From Saprospiraceae bacterium (GTDB lineage Bacteria; Bacteroidota; Bacteroidia; Chitinophagales; Saprospiraceae): 46,280 nt of DNA. The notes beneath the pieces are model-generated. The model saw nothing but the letters and a program-made list of their open reading frames with translations. It did no database searches and was not told where the DNA came from. Positions 2,303 through 26,608 of the stretch are shown one piece after another (the stretch's first letter is position 1; every line of letters begins with the position of its first letter). A program made the position numbers and the translations under genes. The stretch covers positions 1-46,280 of the forward strand of contig JAHDGD010000013.1 of the NCBI GenBank assembly GCA_020627825.1, in the 5' to 3' direction.

Positions 2303-4009
2303 TTAAATCAACTCAATTATTAAATCATCATCTGTTTTAGTAACTTTTGTAAGTCCGTGCTTTGCAAGTCCTTTAACCGATTTATCCCATTGTTTATTAC
2401 TTAGACCCGCAGCTTCCTTTAAAACAGGTAAAGACATACTTTTTTCTTTAGACAACAGGTCATATATAAGTTGTTCGTTTTCTGAAAGAGTGACGGTTTT
2501 CTTTTTAGCTTCCGGCTTCATTTGAGGAAAAAATAAGACATCTTGAATCGAATTACTATTTGTCATGATCATTGCTAATCGATCCATGCCTATTCCAAGT
2601 CCTGCTGTTGGTGGCATACCATATTCCAATGCTCTTAAGAAATCTTCATCAAGAACCATTGCTTCATCGTCTCCTCTCTTACCAAGCTCAAGTTGCCCTT
2701 CAAATCTTTCTCTTTGATCTATAGGATCATTTAATTCCGAAAATGAATTGCATAATTCTTTGCCATTAACAATTGCTTCGAATCGCTCGACTAAACCTTC
2801 TTTTGATCTGTGTTTTTTAGCTAAAGGAGACATCTCTACTGGATAGTCTGTTATGAAAGTAGGCTGAATTAATTGAGCTTCACACTTTTCCCCGAATATT
2901 TCATCTATTAATTTACCTTTCCCCATACTTTCGTCAATTGGAACATCAAGATCTCGAGCTGTTGATCTTAGTTGACTTTCATCCATTTCTGATATATCAA
3001 TCCCTGTGAAATGTTCAATTGCCTCAAACATCGTAAATCGCTTCCATGGCCTCTTAAAGTCTATTATATGTTCACCAACTTGAACTTTTGTAGTTCCATT
3101 TGTATCCATTGCCACTTTTTCAATCATTTCTTCAACTAAATTCATCATCCACTCATAGTCTTTGTATGCAACGTATAACTCAATCTGTGTAAATTCAGGA
3201 TTATGGAATCTGCTCATCCCTTCATTTCTGAAATCCTTCGAAAACTCATACACTCCTTCGAATCCTCCTACAATTAATCTCTTAAGATATAACTCATTTG
3301 CTATTCTCAAGTAAAGGGTCATATCCAAAGTATTGTGATGCGTCTTAAATGGTCGAGCCGCAGCACCTCCATACAAAGGCTGTAAAATCGGTGTTTCTAC
3401 TTCTAGATATCCTTTCTCATTTAAATAAGAACGCATAGAGTTATACATCATCGTACGTTTTCTAAACGTCTCGCGGACTTCAGGATTTACGATTAAATCA
3501 ACATATCGCATTCGATAACGTTGTTCAGGGTCAGTAAATGCATCATACACATTCCCCTCATCATCACGCTTCACTATAGGAAGAGGACGTAGTGACTTCG
3601 AAAGTACAATAAGCTCCTTGACATGAATAGAAAGCTCTCCAACTTGCGTGATAAAGGCATCTCCTTTAATTCCTATAAAATCACCTATATCCAGTAGTTT
3701 TTTAAATACTGTATTGTACAGATCTTTATTTTCCCCTGGCGCAATATCATCTCTACTTATATACACTTGGATTCTTCCATCACTTGTCATCAATTCAGCA
3801 AACGAAGCTTTTCCCATAATCCTGCGACTCATCAATCGGCCCGCTAAGCTAATATCCTTATACCGATCTTCTCCATCAACAAAATTTTGACGCAATTCAG
3901 TTATCGTAATGGTATTTTCAAACTCTTCCGATGGAAATGGATTTATACCAAGTTCTTGCATTTTTTGAAGGTTCTCCCTTCTTATTATTTCTTGTTCGCT
4001 TCTTTGCAT
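2303..4009 (-). CDS. lysS: Lysyl-tRNA synthetase, class II
   Basis: The enzyme charges tRNA-Lys. An N-terminal OB-fold anticodon-binding domain (about residues 45-160, [17 protein letters not shown]) precedes the class II catalytic core. Motif 2 is visible as [20 protein letters not shown] and motif 3 as [15 protein letters not shown]-terminal extension of about 70 residues after the core ([18 protein letters not shown] onward) resembles a small winged-helix-like tail; I believe it is common in Bacteroidota LysS. The frame is open 44 codons further upstream, but I start at the ATG ending at 4009 (MQRSEQEII). That is the usual N-terminus, and a good promoter box lies at 4030-4037, inside the extension. 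The predicted length is 568 residues. Confidence 0.95.
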
Positions 4010-4029
4010 GTGATTTTTCTTAAGTCCCC

Positions 4030-4037
4030 CAAAGGTA
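4030..4037 (-). promoter_or_regulatory. Promoter -7 box for lysS
   Basis: On the minus strand this reads TACCTTTG, a full match to the Bacteroidota TAnnTTTG box. It lies 20 bases upstream of the chosen lysS ATG, implying a leader of roughly 10-15 bases. No clear -33 TTG is seen at standard spacing. Confidence 0.55.
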
Positions 4038-4294
4038 TCAATACACTTTTTAAATCCTAATTTTTTATGGTAGATATTTTTGAGTGATGGAGTGTAAAAG
4101 AAAAATAATCTGCCAAAATTTTTGGATGATTTTTGCAGCAATCAATAAATTAAAGCTGTCTTTACATTGAATTCGTATATATGTTATACTTTTAACCTAC
4201 ATTACATATAAGCAATCATAATATAATTCGTTTTTAATTATGTACTGTACCCTTAACCTTTTTGACTAAGATATATTGACCTAAATTATTCTGA

Positions 4295-7200
4295 GTGAAC
4301 CTAAGATTATTCAATCGTTGTCTATTTCTTTTTTTGGCTTGCGCCCAAATGTCTTTATTGCATGCTCAGGTAGATCTTTTTACGGAGACCTTTGATGAAT
4401 TTAATGGAGCAACTACTGGAGTAAGTGATGAAGGTATTCCATGGACTGCTGACTGCTCAGCATGTTCCCCCTCTGGTTCTTACAGCGTGATGAATGGAAC
4501 TTTGGAGAATAATAATACCGATGGAGTTGCTGTATGGTTTACAGATCCTATTGATATCTCTAGTTGTTCTCGCATTACCTTGACCATTGATTATTCAGGA
4601 GAACCTTTTGATAGCCCTGCTGATTGTGGAGCTAATGTACTTGATGGTAGTTTATGCTGTACAGGATGTTCTGGTGATCCAGAAGATGCAGGTTCACCAG
4701 ATTGCGAATTTTGTTGGGATTTTATGGATTTTAGGTTGAATATAGACGGGGTATATTCTGATCTTGGTATTATAGGGACAACTAATACACCTACTTCTTT
4801 TCAAATTGATTATGATGAAACCAATTGTCCCAATCTAGGGAATTCAGCGTTTATCGAAGTTAGAAGTCAGACATGGGCGGCGGATGAATTTATGCGTTTC
4901 GACAACGTCATGATGGTCTGTTACGAAGATGGCCCTGAAGGCACTTTAACTGGAACTGGAGATTTATGTCCTGGTCAATGTGTAGATCTCGACTGGGATG
5001 TATCAGGTGGAGAAGCGCCCTACAATCTTTCATTTGAAGTTTCTGCAGGTGGATTTAGTTTGACACAAGGTCTTCCAGGTTTACCCAATATGGGGAGTTT
5101 GACCGTTTGCTATGATGATGGAGGAGGCCTTCCAAGTTTTGATGTACCTTCTAATACCTTAAATCTTACAGACTTTTTTGGGACATCTTATCAGATAGAA
5201 TTACTTAATATAACAGATAATGCCGGTTGTACCACGATGCTCTCAGGACAAGTAATTGATATAACTTTGGGCTCGAGCCCAACAATTAACTCTATACCAC
5301 CAATCGAGATATGTGAGTCGGCTAGTGGAACTACAGAACTAGATCTTACTGATTTTGATGCAGCAATAGGAGGTGGTCAGACAGTCGAGTATTATAGTGA
5401 TATGGGCTTGACTAATCCCATAGGGCCTATAATCATTGTATCTGGGAATACAACAATTTTTGCTGTAGTTAATGCAGGTGCTGGATGTGTTTCTGATCCC
5501 ATTTCGATCGATATTGAATTCCAACAAGGACCTCAAATTGAAGACCCTGGTCCAATTGAGAGTTGTGGAGAGTATATTTTGCCTGAAATTGATGGAACGA
5601 ACTTAACAGGCTCTGTTGGGTATTGGACAGGTCCCAATCAAGGTGGAGCTCCTTTGACAGTAGGTACCATCATAACAACTGATATTGTGGTTTTTATTTA
5701 TGATGAAGGTAATGGTTGTCCTTCGGAGGTGTCATTCTCTATTGACATTCTTCCTCAACCTGAATTGGTAGATGTGCCAACAGTTGTAGCTTGTGGTTCC
5801 TATGAATTACCGCAAATCTTCGGAAATAACTTAAGCGGGAATGAAAATTATTATACGCAGCCCAATGGTGGAGGTATGCAATTTTCAGAAGGAGATATGA
5901 TTTCTGATGACATCGTATTATATATTTATGACGAAATAGGCATGTGTTCTGATGAAGTTATCCTAATCATTAGCATAACTGATGGACCTGAAATTATAAT
6001 GCCAGATACATTGATTGCTTGTGATGTATTATTGCTTCCATCTGTAGAAGGAAATGACTTGAGTGATGACGCATCTTACTTCACTGGTCAGAGCGGAACA
6101 GGGAATCAGATCAATCCTGGAACAGGAATAGCTTCGTCAACAACTATTTATGCTTATGATGGTGAAGAGAATTGTTTCGATGAACAGGAAATCGAAGTTA
6201 TTATTCCTATGACACCAGACCTAGATCAACCTGCCGATGTTACAGAATGTAATTTTTATATTTTTCCTACTATTGGTGGAAATGACCTTCAGAGCCCAGG
6301 TATTTTAGTAAATGGGATGTCATTTTTCCCTGGAGATACTCTTTTTGCATCTGAAGAAGTCTTGATATGTGATTCTATTGTAAATGATCCCATATCCTTC
6401 AATGGAGAAGAGTTTAATTGCGCTGTATGTATTTCCTATCAAGTTACTATTATGGAAAGTGCAGACGCAGGAAGTGATGTTGCCTTCAATGATTGTGGTG
6501 GATCTGTTTTGAATTTAGAAGATATAATTGATGTGGATGCTGATGAAGGAGGTCTATTTATTGATACGTCATCAACTGGAGCAATAACTGGAAATATGCT
6601 GGATGCATCATTGATAAATGGAAATACATTCAGTTTTTTCTATGAAGTAGAAAACATGTGTGGGATTGATACTGCAGTTTACACTTTATCGATAACTGAT
6701 GTAGCTAACGCCGGTGGAAATACGTCTACAAGTGTATGTGAGGACGAGGAACTAGATCTTATAGATTATACCAATGGGGATATAGGTGGGGTTTTTGTTA
6801 ATACTAACGATAATTCTATGCCTACTACCATCAATAGTAATATCATTGTCGATGCAGGAGGGAGTTTATTATTCTACTATATTGTAGGACAAGGAGGTAC
6901 TTGTGAACCGGATACCGCAGAAGTAAATTTTGTCATTGTAAATACACCTACCGTCAATCTAGGTGAAGATCAACTGGACTGCGATGCAGTAGAACTTCCT
7001 GACATTAATGGAACTGGGTTAGCAGGGAACGAGTCGTACAATACCGAGCCTGATGGTAGTGGAACCACTTTCGAGGTAGGAGATACACTATTTAATTCAG
7101 ATATTTTATATGTACTATCAGGGAGTGGGTTGTGCGCAACAAGTGATACGATAGAATATACAATAATTAATGTACCACCTACAATTATCCAAGAGACCAT

Positions 7201-15541: not shown

Positions 15542-15612
15542 CATCTCTGTTATAAGGTAAAACGACAACTAGACCAACTGCTACCTTCATTTTTAAACCA
15601 AATTGAGTGAAT

Positions 15613-18027
15613 ATGAGTTCATCTGAGTTAATGGGAACAACGGGTAAGAAATCTAAGAATAACAAATTTGTTCAACAAGCGATCGAAGATCTTAGAATAT
15701 GCCTTATATCTAGAGAAGCAAGTTTGTTGGCTCGTAAAGAAGTTTTAACAGGAAAGGCGAAGTTTGGTATATTAGGAGATGGAAAGGAAGTGCCTCAAGT
15801 TGCCATGGCACGTGCATTCAAGAATGGAGATTTTAGAACAGGGTACTATCGCGATCAGACATTTATGATGGCTACTGGACTACTGAGTATAAAGCAATTT
15901 TTTGCTCAGTTATATGCCGATACAGAAAATGATCCACATTCAGGTGGTCGTCAAATGAATAGTCATTACGCCACTAAATTCATAGACAAGTCTGGTAATT
16001 GGTTAAATCATACGGATAAAAAGAATGTATCAGCAGATATTTCATGTACTGCAGGACAGATGGGAAGAGGGCTAGGATTAGCTATGGCTTCCAAGAAATA
16101 TCGTGAACTAGATCTTAAAGACTCCAAGAATTTTTCCAAGAATGGAAATGAAGTTGTTTTTGTGACAATAGGAGATGCTTCTACTTCTGAAGGTATTTTT
16201 TGGGAAACAATGAATGCTGCTGCTGTACGTCAAGTTCCTATGCTTGTTTCAGTGTGGGATGATGGATATGGTATTTCAGTGCCTAAAGCGTTTCAAACTG
16301 TAAAAAGTTCTATTTCTAAAGCATTGGAAGGAATGTTGCTTAATGAAGAAGGTGAGGGAATTTACATCGAAGTAGTGAAAGGGTATGAATACGATAGTTT
16401 ACTTAAAGCATACATGAACGTCAGTGAAAAAGTGAGAAAAAATCATATTCCCGCTTTATTGCATGTTACAGATCTCACCCAGCCACAAGGCCATTCAACT
16501 TCTGGATCTCATGAACGATACAAGTCAAAAGAAAGACTAGAATGGGAAGCGAATCACGATTGCATCGAAATGATGATCAAGTGGATGAAAGCAAATCATT
16601 TGCTTACCGATCAAGATGTTGAAGATCTGAGAATAGAAGCAAAACAACTTGTTAAAGAAGAAGCGGCAAAAGCTTGGGCTGATTTCCAAAATCCTTTTAA
16701 AGATCTGCTACAAGAGTTGAAAGCTATCGCTTTACAAATCTCTGAAATTCCGCAAGCTAGTTCTTTAATAGAGGCATTCAATAAAGAAATTGATTTAAAT
16801 TTTGGGATTAATTTAGGTGCCTTATCAAAACTATCAAGGAATCTAAGAGCGAATTTAATGCTACTTAGTATACAGGATGATGACTTGAATGCTTTTATTC
16901 ATAAAACAAATAAGATCGGTCACGATAAATACCATACTCATTTATATGCAGAAGGCGAGAAATCAGCTCTGAATATACCAGTCGTACATCCACAATATGA
17001 TGAGAATCCAGAGAAAGCTGTTGGTTATCAAATCTTAAATTCGTATTTTGATTCTTTATTTCAAAGAGATGATAGTGTCGTAGCTTTTGGTGAAGATGTG
17101 GGAAATATAGGTGATGTAAATCAAGGATTTGCTGGACTTCAGGAAAAATATGGTGAAGAACGTATATGGGATGAAGGTATTCGAGAATGGTCTATTATGG
17201 GACAGAGTATAGGCCTTGCACAGCGTGGTTTCCGACCAATAGCAGAAATTCAATATCTTGATTACATTGTATATGGACTGGAGCCATTAGTGGATGATTT
17301 AACAACCGTACGTTATCGAAGTAATGGAATTCAAAAAGCACCTGCTATAATAAGAACAAGAGGACATAGACTAGAAGGGATATGGCATGCTGGATCTCCA
17401 CTAGGTATGCTGACACATGCATTGCGCGGCATGTACCTTGCAGTTCCTCGAAATATGGTACAAGCTGCTGGAATGTACAATACCTTGATTCAATCTGATG
17501 ATCCAGCCCTTGTCATAGAACCTTTAAACAGTTACAGATACCGAGAAAATTTGCCATCAAATATAGGGGAATATACAGTACCTCTTGGTCAACCTGATGT
17601 TCTTGTTGAAGGGGCTGATTTGACTATGGTAACTTACGGATCGATGGTACGTATTGCTGAAAAAGCTGTGCTGGAATTGAAAAAACATGATATTGAAGTC
17701 GAATTAATTGATATTCAAACTCTTTTACCTTTTGATACGGAGCATAGTATAGTTGAAAGTCTTAAGAAAACGAATAAAATTATTTTTGTCGATGAAGATA
17801 TTCCAGGAGGAGCGACAAGTTTCATGATGCAACAAGTTCTTGAAGTCCAAAATGGATACAATTATTTAGATTCAGCTCCAGCTACACTCACAGCTCACGA
17901 ACATAGAACACCTTTCGGGTCTGATGGTGATTATTTCACGAAACCCAATGAACAGGATGTGTTTGAAGCAGCTTATAAAATTATGCATCAGTACAATCCA
18001 TCTGCATTTCCTATAGATTTAGGCTAA
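15613..18027 (+). CDS. 2-oxoacid dehydrogenase E1, fused alpha and beta subunits (thiamine diphosphate-dependent)
   Basis: The product is about 804 residues. The N-terminal half is an E1-alpha domain (YYRDQTFMMATG, HSGGRQMNSHY, and the thiamine-diphosphate motif GDASTSEGIFWETMNAA). The C-terminal half, from about residue 455, is an E1-beta transketolase-like domain (VVAFGEDVGNIGDVNQGFAGL, YLDYIVYGLEPLVDDL, RTRGHRLEGIWHAGSP). It would carry out oxidative decarboxylation of a 2-oxoacid, most likely branched-chain 2-oxoacids or pyruvate, feeding an E2 acyltransferase encoded elsewhere. The alpha and beta parts, usually separate genes, are one frame here; similar fusions are known in Bacteroidota. 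Substrate choice cannot be settled from sequence. GTG at 15,607 is an alternative start two codons upstream. Confidence 0.9.
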   Translation: MSSSELMGTTGKKSKNNKFVQQAIEDLRICLISREASLLARKEVLTGKAKFGILGDGKEVPQVAMARAFKNGDFRTGYYRDQTFMMATGLLSIKQFFAQLYADTENDPHSGGRQMNSHYATKFIDKSGNWLNHTDKKNVSADISCTAGQMGRGLGLAMASKKYRELDLKDSKNFSKNGNEVVFVTIGDASTSEGIFWETMNAAAVRQVPMLVSVWDDGYGISVPKAFQTVKSSISKALEGMLLNEEGEGIYIEVVKGYEYDSLLKAYMNVSEKVRKNHIPALLHVTDLTQPQGHSTSGSHERYKSKERLEWEANHDCIEMMIKWMKANHLLTDQDVEDLRIEAKQLVKEEAAKAWADFQNPFKDLLQELKAIALQISEIPQASSLIEAFNKEIDLNFGINLGALSKLSRNLRANLMLLSIQDDDLNAFIHKTNKIGHDKYHTHLYAEGEKSALNIPVVHPQYDENPEKAVGYQILNSYFDSLFQRDDSVVAFGEDVGNIGDVNQGFAGLQEKYGEERIWDEGIREWSIMGQSIGLAQRGFRPIAEIQYLDYIVYGLEPLVDDLTTVRYRSNGIQKAPAIIRTRGHRLEGIWHAGSPLGMLTHALRGMYLAVPRNMVQAAGMYNTLIQSDDPALVIEPLNSYRYRENLPSNIGEYTVPLGQPDVLVEGADLTMVTYGSMVRIAEKAVLELKKHDIEVELIDIQTLLPFDTEHSIVESLKKTNKIIFVDEDIPGGATSFMMQQVLEVQNGYNYLDSAPATLTAHEHRTPFGSDGDYFTKPNEQDVFEAAYKIMHQYNPSAFPIDLG

Positions 18028-18031
18028 AAAA

Positions 18032-18280
18032 CTGAGTTCGAGATTACTAGCTCGCAATTAATTTTATTGTTTGTACTAGATTTTCAATATATTAATTTAT
18101 CTCCTGAACATTTTATTTTCATGATCTTCAATCTTTGGTCAACAAATTTTATAGAAAAATCAAAGCATTCCACTTTCTTCTGCATTGTTTTATTTCGATG
18201 TGACTCGCCACATTTTCAACAAAACGCTTTGAATAAAGCGTTTTCTTTGATTTTTGCTTTCGCAATTAATCCCGAACTCA
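18032..18280. repeat. Structured intergenic element bounded by inverted arms
   Basis: The left arm CTGAGTTCGAGATTA (18,032-18,046) is matched by the reverse complement of TAATCCCGAACTCAG (18,267-18,281), with one mismatch. Inside lie an 11-base inverted pair (AAAAATCAAAG at 18,155-18,165; CTTTGATTTTT at 18,245-18,255) and a perfect hairpin at 18,221-18,244. The left arm with its extension (18,033-18,063) recurs inverted at 23,500-23,530 with 2 mismatches in 31. It could be a small non-autonomous mobile repeat or a structured 3' region. Confidence 0.5.
18221..18255 (+). terminator. Likely intrinsic terminator downstream of the E1 gene
   Basis: A perfect 10-base stem, AAAACGCTTT (18,221-18,230) with AAAGCGTTTT (18,235-18,244), encloses a GAAT loop and is followed by a T-rich tract to 18,255. 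It lies about 195 bases after the E1 stop and before the promoter of the glycosyltransferase. Confidence 0.55.
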
Positions 18281-18292
18281 GGTTTAAAGATT

Positions 18293-18312
18293 TTTTGGGC
18301 TCGAGCCCAAAA
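18293..18312. repeat. Perfect 20-base palindrome TTTTGGGCTCGAGCCCAAAA
   Basis: The sequence is fully self-complementary, so on either strand it forms a GC stem with A and T tracts outside. An identical 20-mer occurs at 26,589-26,608, a variant at 20,839-20,859, and the core also occurs inside a coding region at 5,267-5,282. It may act as a bidirectional terminator or be a dispersed repeat. Confidence 0.75.
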
Positions 18313-18378
18313 TAAAATTGGTGTAGAATTTAATGGAATAATAAGTGATGTAAATAAGCGTTAATTCGTTAGATTGCT

Positions 18379-18386
18379 TACTTTTG
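18379..18386 (+). promoter_or_regulatory. Promoter -7 box for the glycosyltransferase gene
   Basis: TACTTTTG is a full TAnnTTTG match. It covers the TTG (18,384) that would open the longest reading frame, so translation must begin downstream. This supports the TTG at 18,420 as the start. Confidence 0.55.
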
Positions 18387-18419
18387 GAGCTTGTTTATCA
18401 TACAAAAGAACAAATCATT

Positions 18420-19148
18420 TTGTCAAAAAACCTCGTCATTATTCCTACTTTCAATGAGAAAGAAAACATTGAAAAGATCATCAGTGCGGTCTTGAATCTT
18501 GACATGCCTTTCCATATACTTATTGTTGATGACGGTTCACCTGATGGAACTGCTGATATTGTAAAACGGATGCAAAAAGGGAATGAAGGGAAACTTCATT
18601 TGATTGAAAGAAAAGGTAAAATGGGACTAGGAACTGCTTATATTACAGGTTTTCGGTTTGGCTTAAATCATTCCTACGACTATATATGTGAAATGGATGC
18701 TGATTTTAGTCATAATCCACAAGATTTACCGAGATTGGTTGAAGCTTGCAAGGACGGTGCGGATATGTCAGTAGGTTCTAGGTATGTTCCAGGAGGAAAA
18801 ACGGAAAATTGGCCTTTCGATCGACTTGTTTTATCCAAAGGTGCTTCATTTTACGTACGAGCTATTACCTGGATGAATGTAAAAGATCCTACAGCAGGTT
18901 TTGTTTGCTATTCGCATAGAGTGCTTGCCGCTATCGATTTAAGTAAAATTAAATTCATTGGTTATGCATTTCAAATCGAGATGAAATACGCGACAAAAAC
19001 ACTTGGTTTTTCTGTAAAAGAGGTACCAATTACTTTTGTTGACCGTATTGAAGGTGTAAGTAAAATGTCGAGAGGCATAATCAAAGAAGCGGTATTTGGG
19101 GTTTTATCAATGCGAATCAAAAGCTTTTTTTCAAGCTACTCGAATTAA
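18420..19148 (+). CDS. Family 2 glycosyltransferase, polyprenol-phosphate mannose synthase type
   Basis: The 242-residue product transfers a sugar, by family analogy mannose from GDP-mannose, to a polyprenyl phosphate on the inner face of the cytoplasmic membrane. The N-terminus LVIIPTFNEKENI, the nucleotide-binding VDDGSPDGTADIV, the metal-binding EMDADFSHNP and the loop GSRYVPGG are the dolichol-phosphate mannosyltransferase pattern. There is no C-terminal membrane domain, as in the short soluble forms. The donor sugar and lipid are inferred. The TTG at 18,420 is chosen as start because a promoter box overlaps the upstream frame. Its stop TAA shares bases with the stop of the convergent gene. 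Confidence 0.88.
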   Translation: MSKNLVIIPTFNEKENIEKIISAVLNLDMPFHILIVDDGSPDGTADIVKRMQKGNEGKLHLIERKGKMGLGTAYITGFRFGLNHSYDYICEMDADFSHNPQDLPRLVEACKDGADMSVGSRYVPGGKTENWPFDRLVLSKGASFYVRAITWMNVKDPTAGFVCYSHRVLAAIDLSKIKFIGYAFQIEMKYATKTLGFSVKEVPITFVDRIEGVSKMSRGIIKEAVFGVLSMRIKSFFSSYSN

Positions 19149-20838: not shown

Positions 20839-20859
20839 TTTTGGGCTTAAAGCCCAAAA
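20839..20859 (+). terminator. Palindromic hairpin after the peptidase gene (GGGCTT-A-AAGCCC)
   Basis: TTTTGGGCTT and AAGCCCAAAA pair perfectly around a single central A, 24 bases after the peptidase stop. It belongs to the same palindrome family as 18,293 and 26,589. The downstream tract is A-rich rather than T-rich, so it would terminate better on the minus strand; a role for the peptidase is tentative. Confidence 0.45.
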
Positions 20860-23370: not shown

Positions 23371-23499
23371 GATTTTTTCACAAAAACGAATATTGAGGTT
23401 TTTAAACTGTTCTTATAGCATTAATATTCTCAATTATTAATAATACATATTGCGGGTTAAAGTCTATATGCTTCATTGAAAATCAAGTGCATACAATAC

Positions 23500-23530
23500 A
23501 ATCAATTGCGAGCTAGTAATCCCGAACTCA
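23500..23530. repeat. Solo inverted copy of the 18,033-18,063 repeat arm
   Basis: The reverse complement of this stretch matches 18,033-18,063 at 29 of 31 positions (shared core GATTACTAGCTCGCAATT). It lies between the 3' ends of holA and the convergent haloperoxidase gene, so both copies sit just after stop codons. Confidence 0.6.
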
Positions 23531-23542
23531 TGTTAATTGGTA

Positions 23543-26452
23543 TTACAACGCAATTAGTTTCTTACGTACAATGATATCATTTTGACCATTCAAAATGTAT
23601 AAATAGTAAAGTCCTTTAGATTCTGCAGGGATGTTATCAACGATAAAAACATTCTGGTTTCCAATCAACACTCTGTTGTAAACAACTTGCCCTAAACTAT
23701 TGAATAAAGTGACTCTTAATGGTTCGGTAGAATTATAATGAATCGTTATATTATCTGTAAACGGATTCGGATAAATTCTTGTTTCTTCAAATAGATCAAT
23801 TCCGCTACAATCTTCATCAATTCCATTGTCGCTTATTTCGATTGCACCTGGAAATATAGAAGAATCATAATCATTACAATCAATATTGTTTAGCACATAT
23901 CCTGACGGAGTCACATCATAACAAATCGAAATACTGCTATTGGGGTCTCCGAAACCATCGTTATCGTTGTCAAGATAATAAAAATACAATGGTAAATCTT
24001 CATCAATTACTCCATTGCAATTGTTGTCGATGTCATCACATATTTCTTCAGAGGCTGGATGGATGGATGCATCAAGATCGTTGCAGTCAGTGTCAAGAGT
24101 ACTATATCCACTAGGTGGTGAAGCCGAACATATCTGGATAAAGTCTATCGAATTTCCATATCCATCGTTATCTTCATCAACGTAATAGGTAAACAATGGA
24201 AGGTTTTCATCAATAGAACCGTCGCAATTGTTGTCGATGTTATCGCATATTTCAGTAGCTCCTGGATTTATTGCTGCGTTTGTATCATCACAATCATCTG
24301 ATAAGGTAGAATACCCTTCAGGAGAAATAGTCTGACATATTTCAATAAATTCATCACTCTGGCCATATCCGTCACCATCTTCATCTTTAAAATATATAAA
24401 CAATGGTAAATCTTCATCAATTTCCATATTACAATTATTGTCCTTGTCATCACATAGTTCAGGTGCTGATGGGTAAATGGTATTGTCTAGGTCATCACAA
24501 TCCTCATAACTATAATAACCATCTTCATCTAGATCTTCAAAAAAATAGGTTTCAGCTAAGTCAAACACATTTTCTGCAACTTGAATCCCCATTATTCTGC
24601 CTGGTATGTCATCAGCAGGAGGATGTATTCCACCCCATATTCTACTTAAACTTGTTTCGTCACTTGCATCTCTATACGTCGCCCATTGAAGGGTGAAGCT
24701 TTGTGTTGGGCCATCTTCAAACACTAAAAACTCATTTGCTTCTACTTCAAATTCTCCCATCCCCCCAGGAAAGTATGCATCACCAGTAAATGCGGTTAAA
24801 ATCTCTGCTGCCGCTCTTGAAAAGGTGCTATGACCTGAAACATAACCAGCAAAAGGTGGAGTTACAAATGTAGGACGCTGATAAGGCCACCAATTTTCTA
24901 TTAATATCCATCCTACATCAGCTGTACTTGTTTCTGGTGAGCCTATATAATCAGGTCCTCTCCACACTCTAGCTTTTAATTTATGTAAATGCTCCATATT
25001 ATCTCCTACTAATGGGTCATCTTCATAAACGAGCTCAATAAAATTTTCTTCAAGTTCAAATCCAAATGGAGAATAACTAGGGAGGTTTTCGTCGGACCTT
25101 TGTCCTAAACTTGCAATATATCGAATTGCACTGACTGGTCTTATGTAATCGTAGTATCCTTTCACGCTCCAGGCGCTTATTGCTGCGTCATGCATTGCGG
25201 CACCCAGCATAAAATAACTCTTTATATCCCATTCTATATCGCTATAGGTTTCACCGATTCCCCTATATTTTTTCTCATTATCTGGATGGTCGTTTACATA
25301 ATTTAAGATACTGAACCAATGACCAGGAGGTGTCTCACTATCAGGTCCATCAGCCCAAAATTCTGCTAGAACTCTTGTATAATCACCAAAAGGGACAAGT
25401 TGTTCTTCGTACGCTAATTCTGTTGAAGGGTTTACATCATGCCCATTACTAAAGTCTCCACCATTTTCATAATCATAGTAACTAAGAATATCTTCTACAC
25501 TTTGCGGTAAAGCCGGGTTGTTGCCATTGGATGCAGGAGAAATGTCTACCATTACTCCATCCGATGGATCTAGCTGACTTGACCATTTTAGAACCAATTC
25601 AAACCCTCGAATATAGTCGTAGCTATCTGCAGGATCGCTGCCAAGATTGATATAGGGTGGTGGACCAGGGTCAAGATATACATTGTATGTGTCTTCGTCT
25701 TTCGTGTACACAGTTTTATCTTCATCAGTTAACGCAAAGCAGTCCACATTTCCCCATTCTGGTGATAAAAAATCAGGAACAGTTGAAATAGGGTTTCCGC
25801 TTTGATCAACAAATAATTCCAATGCTAATTGCTGCCAATTATTGGGAAAGTCAATGGAAGGGTTGCCAGGTTTGTCTACCTCAAGTGGAGGATTTATACT
25901 TTCGTAATAGGCATTATCATAGCCAGTTCCTTCTCTTGAACCATCTTGTAAACCATAGGCTATCATTTGATTGGCAATATAAATACCTAGTGCTGCTGCA
26001 TTCCCATTGGAATAATCTTCATTGGTTATATTCGTACTGTAACCTAGTTCGCTCATTTTCTGAAATAATGAAACTATAGTACCAAATGCTGATGGTGATT
26101 GAGCAAATCGATGCCTTATTAAAGTATACATTGCATAACTAATTGCTTGTTCAAATTTTGCTTCAGTGTCGCCGCTTGTATCAAAGCCATCAAATTCGAA
26201 CATATACCCGTTCACTTCATTTCCCAAAAAGTACGGTTTTGCTTCATCATTAAATATAGTCCATATGTCATACATCATGGCCGAAGTATGCCATAGATTT
26301 CTTGCATGAACTGTAGGTCTTGCTAAATCTCCTCGTATTGCTTCAAGTAATTCTTCGTTCCATTCTCTTGCAATTGTATGTTGTCCATATGAAGGAGTAA
26401 CTTGAAAAATGCAAAGAAAAATAGCTACGTAAAGACTTATTTTTTTGAACAT
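23543..26452 (-). CDS. Vanadium-haloperoxidase/PAP2-like secreted protein with MopE repeats and T9SS type A sorting domain
   Basis: The 969-residue product has a signal peptide ending near PSYGQ. Residues about 25-630 form an all-helical vanadium-dependent haloperoxidase-like domain of the PAP2 superfamily. The visible active-site elements are YDYIRPVSAIRYI, the SGHSTFSRA His and SRIWGGIHPPADD with the last His. Residues about 640-890 hold four MopE-type metal-binding repeats (DEDGDGYG, DDCDD, PGATEICDNIDNNCDG), each with calcium-like DxDxDG loops and paired cysteines. The final 78 residues (IYPNPFTDNI, LFNSLGQVV) are a T9SS type A sorting domain. It is predicted to be secreted; halide oxidation or phosphatase activity cannot be told apart from sequence alone. 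Confidence 0.88.
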   Translation of the reverse strand: MFKKISLYVAIFLCIFQVTPSYGQHTIAREWNEELLEAIRGDLARPTVHARNLWHTSAMMYDIWTIFNDEAKPYFLGNEVNGYMFEFDGFDTSGDTEAKFEQAISYAMYTLIRHRFAQSPSAFGTIVSLFQKMSELGYSTNITNEDYSNGNAAALGIYIANQMIAYGLQDGSREGTGYDNAYYESINPPLEVDKPGNPSIDFPNNWQQLALELFVDQSGNPISTVPDFLSPEWGNVDCFALTDEDKTVYTKDEDTYNVYLDPGPPPYINLGSDPADSYDYIRGFELVLKWSSQLDPSDGVMVDISPASNGNNPALPQSVEDILSYYDYENGGDFSNGHDVNPSTELAYEEQLVPFGDYTRVLAEFWADGPDSETPPGHWFSILNYVNDHPDNEKKYRGIGETYSDIEWDIKSYFMLGAAMHDAAISAWSVKGYYDYIRPVSAIRYIASLGQRSDENLPSYSPFGFELEENFIELVYEDDPLVGDNMEHLHKLKARVWRGPDYIGSPETSTADVGWILIENWWPYQRPTFVTPPFAGYVSGHSTFSRAAAEILTAFTGDAYFPGGMGEFEVEANEFLVFEDGPTQSFTLQWATYRDASDETSLSRIWGGIHPPADDIPGRIMGIQVAENVFDLAETYFFEDLDEDGYYSYEDCDDLDNTIYPSAPELCDDKDNNCNMEIDEDLPLFIYFKDEDGDGYGQSDEFIEICQTISPEGYSTLSDDCDDTNAAINPGATEICDNIDNNCDGSIDENLPLFTYYVDEDNDGYGNSIDFIQICSASPPSGYSTLDTDCNDLDASIHPASEEICDDIDNNCNGVIDEDLPLYFYYLDNDNDGFGDPNSSISICYDVTPSGYVLNNIDCNDYDSSIFPGAIEISDNGIDEDCSGIDLFEETRIYPNPFTDNITIHYNSTEPLRVTLFNSLGQVVYNRVLIGNQNVFIVDNIPAESKGLYYLYILNGQNDIIVRKKLIAL
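23810..24530 (-). repeat. Four MopE-type repeats within the haloperoxidase-like gene
   Basis: Four copies of about 66-68 codons encode the pattern DxDxDGxG, a spacer, GY-x4-DCxD, x-I-x-P-(G/S)-A-x-E-x-C-D-x-x-D-N-N-C-x-x-x-I-D-E. The last copy ends ISDNGIDEDCSG, a variant lacking one Cys, which marks the end of the array. The copies are similar at DNA level, so recombination between them is possible. Confidence 0.75.
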
Positions 26453-26588: not shown

Positions 26589-26608
26589 TTTTGGGCTCGA
26601 GCCCAAAA
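26589..26608 (-). terminator. Perfect 20-base palindrome, probable terminator after the YiiX-like gene
   Basis: TTTTGGGCTCGAGCCCAAAA is identical to 18,293-18,312. Here it lies 58 bases past the minus-strand stop at 26,667; on the minus strand the stem is followed by AAAAAATG, and on the plus strand by AAAATAAAG. Two small hairpins at 26,537-26,555 and around 26,579 (AAGGA/TCCTT) sit next to it. The terminator role is inferred from position. Confidence 0.5.

Follow-up and report, generated by a model that had tools for sequence, protein, structure and literature searches.

A probable IS982-family MITE and an independent iterated palindrome behind an E1 gene of a Saprospiraceae bacterium

In a Saprospiraceae bacterium (contig JAHDGD010000013.1), the gap between an E1 dehydrogenase gene and a glycosyltransferase gene holds a 254-bp segment that is very probably a non-autonomous MITE of the IS982 family, positions 18030 to 18283 of the window. 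By the window we mean the whole stretch of DNA that was analysed, 46,280 nucleotides read on the forward strand. The MITE is a further example of the known IS982 MITEs, and as biology it is ordinary. The features that concern it are these:

15607 to 18027, plus strand: E1 dehydrogenase/transketolase-type gene, upstream of the MITE; its TAA stop is 18025 to 18027
18025 to 18029, no strand: left target duplicate TAAAA, matching the right duplicate at 4 of 5 bases and holding the E1 stop TAA
18030 to 18283, plus strand: MITE copy of IS982 type, 254 bp, without a transposase gene; ends ACC...GGT by the IS982 convention
18030 to 18046, plus strand: left terminal inverted repeat, with 2 mismatches to the 17-bp consensus ACCTGAGTTCGGGATTA
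18155 to 18165, plus strand: left inner arm, pairing with 18245 to 18255 at 11 of 11 positions
18198 to 18213, plus strand: inner palindrome ATGTGACTCGCCACAT, in most copies, with 96.5% of cells in pairs and double changes absent
18221 to 18244, plus strand: 10-bp hairpin AAAACGCTTTGAATAAAGCGTTTT, the sole terminator-like match in 17900 to 18500, where shuffles average 0.4
18245 to 18255, plus strand: right inner arm, partner of 18155 to 18165
18267 to 18283, minus strand: right terminal inverted repeat, exact to the consensus ACCTGAGTTCGGGATTA
18284 to 18288, no strand: right target duplicate TTAAA, equal to the left at 4 of 5 bases
18384 to 19148, plus strand: family 2 glycosyltransferase gene, downstream of the MITE
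23475 to 23533, minus strand: solo left half of another MITE copy, its end at 23517 to 23533; 23475 to 23530 match at 89%, E 3e-14

How widespread is this sequence? With 18020 to 18320 as the query, the bacterium's own genome (G000, a 4.46-Mb draft of 297 contigs, 96% complete) has the family dispersed over no fewer than 40 distinct places at E<=6e-11, a lower bound, as the best 40 of 274 first-look candidates were scored. About 20 of these places are near full length, and the 20 long two-ended copies align over 248 to 257 bp with a mean column identity of 86%. The right half is the better preserved, many fragments beginning at about position 110 to 215 of the query and reaching about 265. Shortened derivatives also occur, six of 96 to 172 bp and six end-to-end forms of 47 to 48 bp (L047, L048, L049, L053, L061, and L140), some of them with loosely matching ends; the smallest are possible REP-like end products of internal deletion. 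Two copies, L017 and L018, contain another repeat internally. Within 2 mismatches, the two strands of the own genome have 28 and 32 MITE ends, where the reversed control has 0 and 1. At 3 mismatches the counts are 44 and 45 against 11 and 13, and some single ends must therefore be matches by chance. No ORF of at least 80 amino acids spans any of the 20 long copies, a few ORFs enter one end, and the longest open frames within copies are 84 (L001) and 59 (L009) amino acids.

The first-pass annotation had described the gap as a nested, structured element with a repeat copy 5.5 kb away. Its outer arms, 18032 to 18046 and 18267 to 18281, do pair (14 of 15 positions) and are part of longer ends, those of the element at 18030 to 18283. 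Its inner arms pair throughout, and the 10-bp hairpin and a 20-bp palindrome at 18293 to 18312 are present as described. The inverted repeat copy at 23500 to 23530, matching at 29 of 31 positions, turns out to be the surviving half of another MITE copy, which ends 9 bp before the end of the minus-strand gene at 23543 to 26452. Given the number of places the family occupies, and 102 palindrome copies where a control has 0, neither the arms nor the palindrome can be put down to chance. Joining the palindrome to the element was an error, as it lies outside the MITE. Some of the pairing in the inner arms and hairpin is particular to the window copy: among 19 distinct copies, one inner-arm pair forms in 9 and the eighth pair of the hairpin is present in 2.

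Members of the family are short, multi-copy, and without a transposase gene; they carry terminal inverted repeats and a target site duplication; and their ends are common to autonomous elements in other genomes, namely, a Chitinophagaceae element (L073) and IS1592. These are the criteria of a MITE. The assignment to IS982 comes from the ends, which are AACCTGAGTTCGGGATTA and its inverse and by the IS982 convention start with ACC and finish with GGT. For that family, PMC7335449 gives an end consensus of AC(N)6T(N)5TT and direct repeats that, when present, are 2 to 10 bp long. The MITE end fits the consensus, and its 5-bp duplicate falls within the range. The L073 element, 1,061 bp long and from a MAG, has a MITE-type end with 0 and 3 mismatches at its two sides, and its transposase is recognized by the IS982 model NF033520 at 239.6 bits (cut-off, 130) as well as by Pfam DDE_Tnp_1_3. 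IS1592, an IS982-family element of Bibersteinia (Pasteurella) trehalosi, has ends AACCTGAGTTCGGGATAA on both sides, with 1 mismatch in 18 to the MITE end; unlike the MITE, it is described in PMC7335449 as a full IS with a transposase, 1,027 bp in length. Taken together, the consensus, the direct-repeat range, and the ends of these two elements argue for a MITE derived from IS982. Of 18 other IS982-like loci (15 from a phylum search and 3 plasmid pieces), some have looser versions of the end and some have no MITE end within 4 mismatches.

Exact 5-bp direct repeats flank 13 of 34 end-paired copies, against a mean of 3.60 and a maximum of 10 in 5,000 shuffles, and all 13 have the form TNNNA (TATTA, TAATA, TTATA, TACTA, and TATAA). 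A T occupies left position -5 in 32 of the 34 copies, and an A occupies right position +5 in 27. Among the other duplicate lengths from 2 to 7 bp, none was above chance in these 34 copies. The sample had stood at 36 until the double-counted end pairs L012 (271 bp) and L022 (351 bp) were removed. A 3-bp duplication with ends AACC...GGTT, found in 16 of 36 copies (shuffle mean, 5.85; maximum, 14), has been superseded by 5 bp with ends ACC...GGT, preferred because it fits both the IS982 convention and the length of IS1592. The perfect 5-bp duplicate is absent in 21 of the 34 copies, the window copy with its 4 of 5 bases included.

Evidence of insertion also comes from empty sites. For 7 of the 20 long copies, the joined flanks match an uninterrupted paralogous locus of the own genome across the junction. 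The matches for L006, L009, and L024 cover at least 20 bp on each side; the empty site of L009 is L054 (89.5% over 105 bp), and that of L006 is L003 (91.5% over 94 bp). Those for L002 and L012 extend 12 to 17 bp beyond the junction, and those for L003 and L022 are short, at 33 and 39 bp, so that four of the seven are short on one side. For 13 of the 20 long copies, no paralogous empty site was found among the own-genome loci compared. Why are these sites paralogous? They are copies of other dispersed repeats that acted as targets. The reading of the gap as a MITE, one of three that had been offered, is thus supported: the family is multi-copy and has terminal inverted repeats, target duplications, and empty sites.

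Two of these other repeats can be recognized. The second dispersed repeat of the genome (ACTATTTGCACTCCAAAATG...TCTATCTACTAAAATGATTAATTTCT) is a MITE target and makes up flanks of L002, L009, L016 (right side), and L054. A third (around CATAATGCGGGTTAAA ... TAGGTCATAATAGATTTTCT) is found in the flanks of L006, L012, and L024 and also at L003 and L004; it both receives the MITE and, in L017 and L018, sits within it. At L007 and L008, identical MITEs stand in unrelated flanks, which points to recent transposition or else to gene conversion.

How might the window copy have arrived? An IS982-family DDE transposase, acting in trans, would recognize the 17-bp ends, and the MITE would insert into AT-rich sites such as TAATA or TATTA. 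In the window it would have hit the stop codon of the E1 gene, with the target duplication preserving that stop; the E1 protein would be unbroken because the duplication kept it. A TNNNA target, together with the AA of the MITE end, can supply or keep a TAA stop, and the stop codon of an ORF lies within 2 bp of 4 of the 20 long copies (L001, L003, L013, and L015). The E1-side stretches of six relatives contained no MITE end within 4 mismatches, but their divergence leaves no empty site that could be read to the base; in the genes that flank the window MITE, identity to the nearest congener is 74%.

What, then, drives the family? A model search of the own genome found one intact IS982 transposase (C104, an ORF of 288 amino acids) and a second match that is weak, has an internal stop, and falls below the cut-off; the three congeners had none. 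The C104 element (L110, 711 to 1612) has the ends AACTTAAGTTGCGGAAAAG, which differ from the MITE end at 6 of 18 positions, and on this mismatch it was judged unlikely to be the parent. Single unpaired MITE ends were considered as possible autonomous copies, and tblastn with two IS982 transposases found no gene of that kind there. An IS with ends matching those of the MITE (ACCTGAGTTCGGG) was not found in the draft genome; MITEs usually, though not by definition, share a genome with an autonomous element that has their ends. The source element may have been lost or may be missing from the draft assembly.

Of 60 genomes queried with a full copy, with the best 12 candidates at most scored per genome, the own genome was the only one in which the MITE was found. 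The three congeners, two of them 51% and 61% complete, have no MITE end within 2 mismatches, and 0 contigs of IMG/VR have the exact 18-base end in a search that may omit records near the own genome. The end itself is found more widely. Scanned for exact matches to the 18-base end, GTDB species genomes gave 44 stretches, 19 of which have a partner end (at most 4 mismatches) at a distance of 159 to 295 bp. Thirteen of these 19 short elements are loci of Pleurocapsa sp. CCALA 161 (within L067 to L102), and six are loci of MAGs assigned to Chryseobacterium, Flavobacteriales, Crocosphaera, Anaerolineae (two), and Finniella (L065, L082, L084, L093, L103, and L107). They share with the window MITE the same exact 18-base end at one side, whereas their interiors look unrelated by eye and they belong to several other phyla. 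Judged from their sequences, these short elements are possibly undescribed MITEs, and the recurrence of one end across several phyla suggests possible cross-mobilization by IS982 transposases. About 3 kb from one Pleurocapsa short element, L100 has a distant IS982-like transposase match (3777 to 4388, 26 to 27% identity).

A close counterpart has been described in Cardinium cOegibbosus. In PMC9769881, MITECca01 is about 240 bp long, has 169 copies, and derives from ISCca4, an IS982 element; like the window MITE, MITECca01 and MITECca02 are IS982-derived elements of about 240 bp, mostly intergenic and in many copies, a likeness of description rather than of aligned sequence. The same source counts 7 intact parents beside the 169 copies in the Cardinium genome, in contrast to the at least 40 places of our family, for which no parent with matching ends was found. 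Judged by a listing of the full-text literature on IS982-derived MITEs, the Cardinium study is the only one devoted to such a family.

Could the segment instead be a structured 3' RNA of the E1 transcript, regulatory or stabilizing, that has been kept for its fold? This is very improbable. Both strands fold better than shuffles (z of -3.8 and -4.8) and the hairpin at 18221 to 18244 is terminator-like, but any DNA with long inverted ends should fold well, and MITE copies stand at many loci in both orientations. Compensatory changes beyond chance, the criterion for a structured RNA, were not found: on the structure of the first-pass annotation, the covariation score of the 20-copy alignment was reached by 97 of 500 shuffles and the number of double-change pairs by 81 of 500. 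The structure that RNAalifold itself proposes has an unfavorable covariation term (+1.12), and no Rfam family reaches its gathering score in the window. The RNA reading is thus unsupported and largely refuted, and the inner arms and hairpins reflect symmetry within the element, not a conserved RNA. The first-pass annotation had been ready to give up its element if there were no further copies in the genome and neither covariation nor empty-site evidence; copies and paralogous empty sites exist, whereas covariation beyond shuffles is absent.

The option of a REPIN-like unit, that is, a REP/REPIN moved by a RAYT (IS200/IS605-like) transposase, is scarcely credible. The family does consist of extragenic palindromic repeats, and the six end-to-end palindromes of 47 to 48 bp occur in the own genome, but a unit of this kind fits worse with ends that are those of IS982 elements and with the presence of target duplications. 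HUH transposases are not known to make target duplications. The GTAG or CGTC tag that PMC3733652 places at one end of a REP palindrome was not seen on inspection of the MITE ends. An IS982-family MITE therefore remains the preferred reading of 18030 to 18283.

The 20-bp palindrome is another story. Its sites in the window are the following:

18293 to 18312, no strand: 20-bp palindrome TTTTGGGCTCGAGCCCAAAA, outside the MITE, iterated genome-wide
26589 to 26608, no strand: exact copy of the 20-bp palindrome, the second in the window
20839 to 20859, no strand: variant of the palindrome, 21 bp long, lying 24 bp past a stop codon
5265 to 5284: copy of the palindrome with 2 mismatches, within an ORF

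In the own genome, TTTTGGGCTCGAGCCCAAAA occurs in 102 exact copies and 164 within 2 mismatches (reversed-pattern control, 0), and the variable-centre form, TTTTGGGC-centre-GCCCAAAA, occurs at 217 sites. Of the 148 genomes searched, three have the exact palindrome, the own genome with its 102 copies and G001 and G003 with 2 each, and the 145 others have none. The variable-centre form is found in 15 of the 148: besides the own genome, G001 (51% complete) has 30, G003 has 8, G002 has 2, and the others have 1 to 7, while its reversed control gives 0 in the own genome, G001, G003, and G002 and 0 to 3 elsewhere. IMG/VR has 0 contigs with the exact palindrome in a search that may omit records near the own genome. 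For the 12-bp core GGGCTCGAGCCC, the full-text literature has no bacterial-repeat paper, judging by titles and abstract starts.

That the palindrome and the MITE are parts of a single composite element, or that the palindrome is the target of the MITE, is next to impossible. Hairpins of the palindrome class do lie 8 to 69 bp from several MITE copies or derivatives (9 bp in the window, 49 in C48, 63 in C139, 8 in C110, 8 in C39, and 69 in C40), but the spacing varies, the flanks of palindrome sites are not shared, and the target of the MITE has the form TNNNA. Both are mostly intergenic, and this by itself would bring them near each other. Palindromes also occur in congeners in which no MITE and no MITE end was found. 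The palindrome is independent of the MITE, the congener data refuting the composite reading.

If the MITE is left out, the palindrome comes directly after the E1 stop, and there the congener G001 also has a hairpin of this type; it reads TTTTTGGGGTTTAACCCCAAA where the own genome reads TTTTTTGGGCTCGAGCCCAAAA, the hairpin being kept with a compensating change. G001 likewise carries a hairpin at the site orthologous to 20839, and at the site matching 26589 no hairpin with a stem of at least 7 was found, so that the hairpin is kept in G001 at 2 of these 3 sites. As an intrinsic terminator the palindrome was rejected, having a T run before and an A run after its G+C core on both strands; the terminator scan did not flag 18293 to 18312.

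Palindromes also stand within genes. A sample of 48 own-genome sites, taken from the first contigs listed and from loci retrieved for the MITE, divides into 11 inside ORFs of at least 150 amino acids and 37 outside them. These 11, together with 4 in-gene sites of congeners, are never in phase 0 and encode FGLEPK or LGxxPK; loci with in-gene FGLEPK or LGSSPK are L190 and L180; L192, L183, L204, L171, L175, and L199. In one gene pair of the own genome and G001, the 20 bases of the palindrome are identical, and 207 of 300 flanking bases (69%) are. Compared with solved structures, the motif is gap-free in a glycosyltransferase and a pseudouridine synthase, and a third PDB comparison (L204, 3-dehydroquinate synthase) has a 4-residue gap at the motif, which speaks neither for nor against an insertion. 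At least two in-gene sites therefore look like substitution, not insertion, as they are gap-free there.

Is there a precedent for such a site? The palindrome HIP1 of cyanobacteria occurs in thousands of copies, also within genes. The site described here resembles it in being a perfect palindrome iterated over the genome. A HIP-like class would be over-represented in coding and non-coding DNA other than by insertion; the observations that bear on this are the exact copies against none in the control, the share of sites in ORFs (11 of 48), and 2 of 3 PDB comparisons without a gap. In PMC4390886, HIP1 is 8 bp long (GCGATCGC), in contrast to the 20 to 21 bp, 102 exact copies, and variable centre of the palindrome in the own genome.

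Overall, the window MITE adds to the few IS982 MITEs in print, and some 100 exact copies of a 20-bp palindrome in one species, with almost none in its relatives, want an explanation. Our suggestion, held tentatively and at somewhat less than even confidence, is that the palindrome represents a hitherto undescribed iterated site, found mainly in one genus and spread or kept at the DNA level and not by transposition. A protein that organizes the chromosome or processes DNA may use it as its site, or a hairpin at gene ends may have turned into a recognized signal; an RNA hairpin at gene ends and a protein site at the DNA level are weighed about equally.
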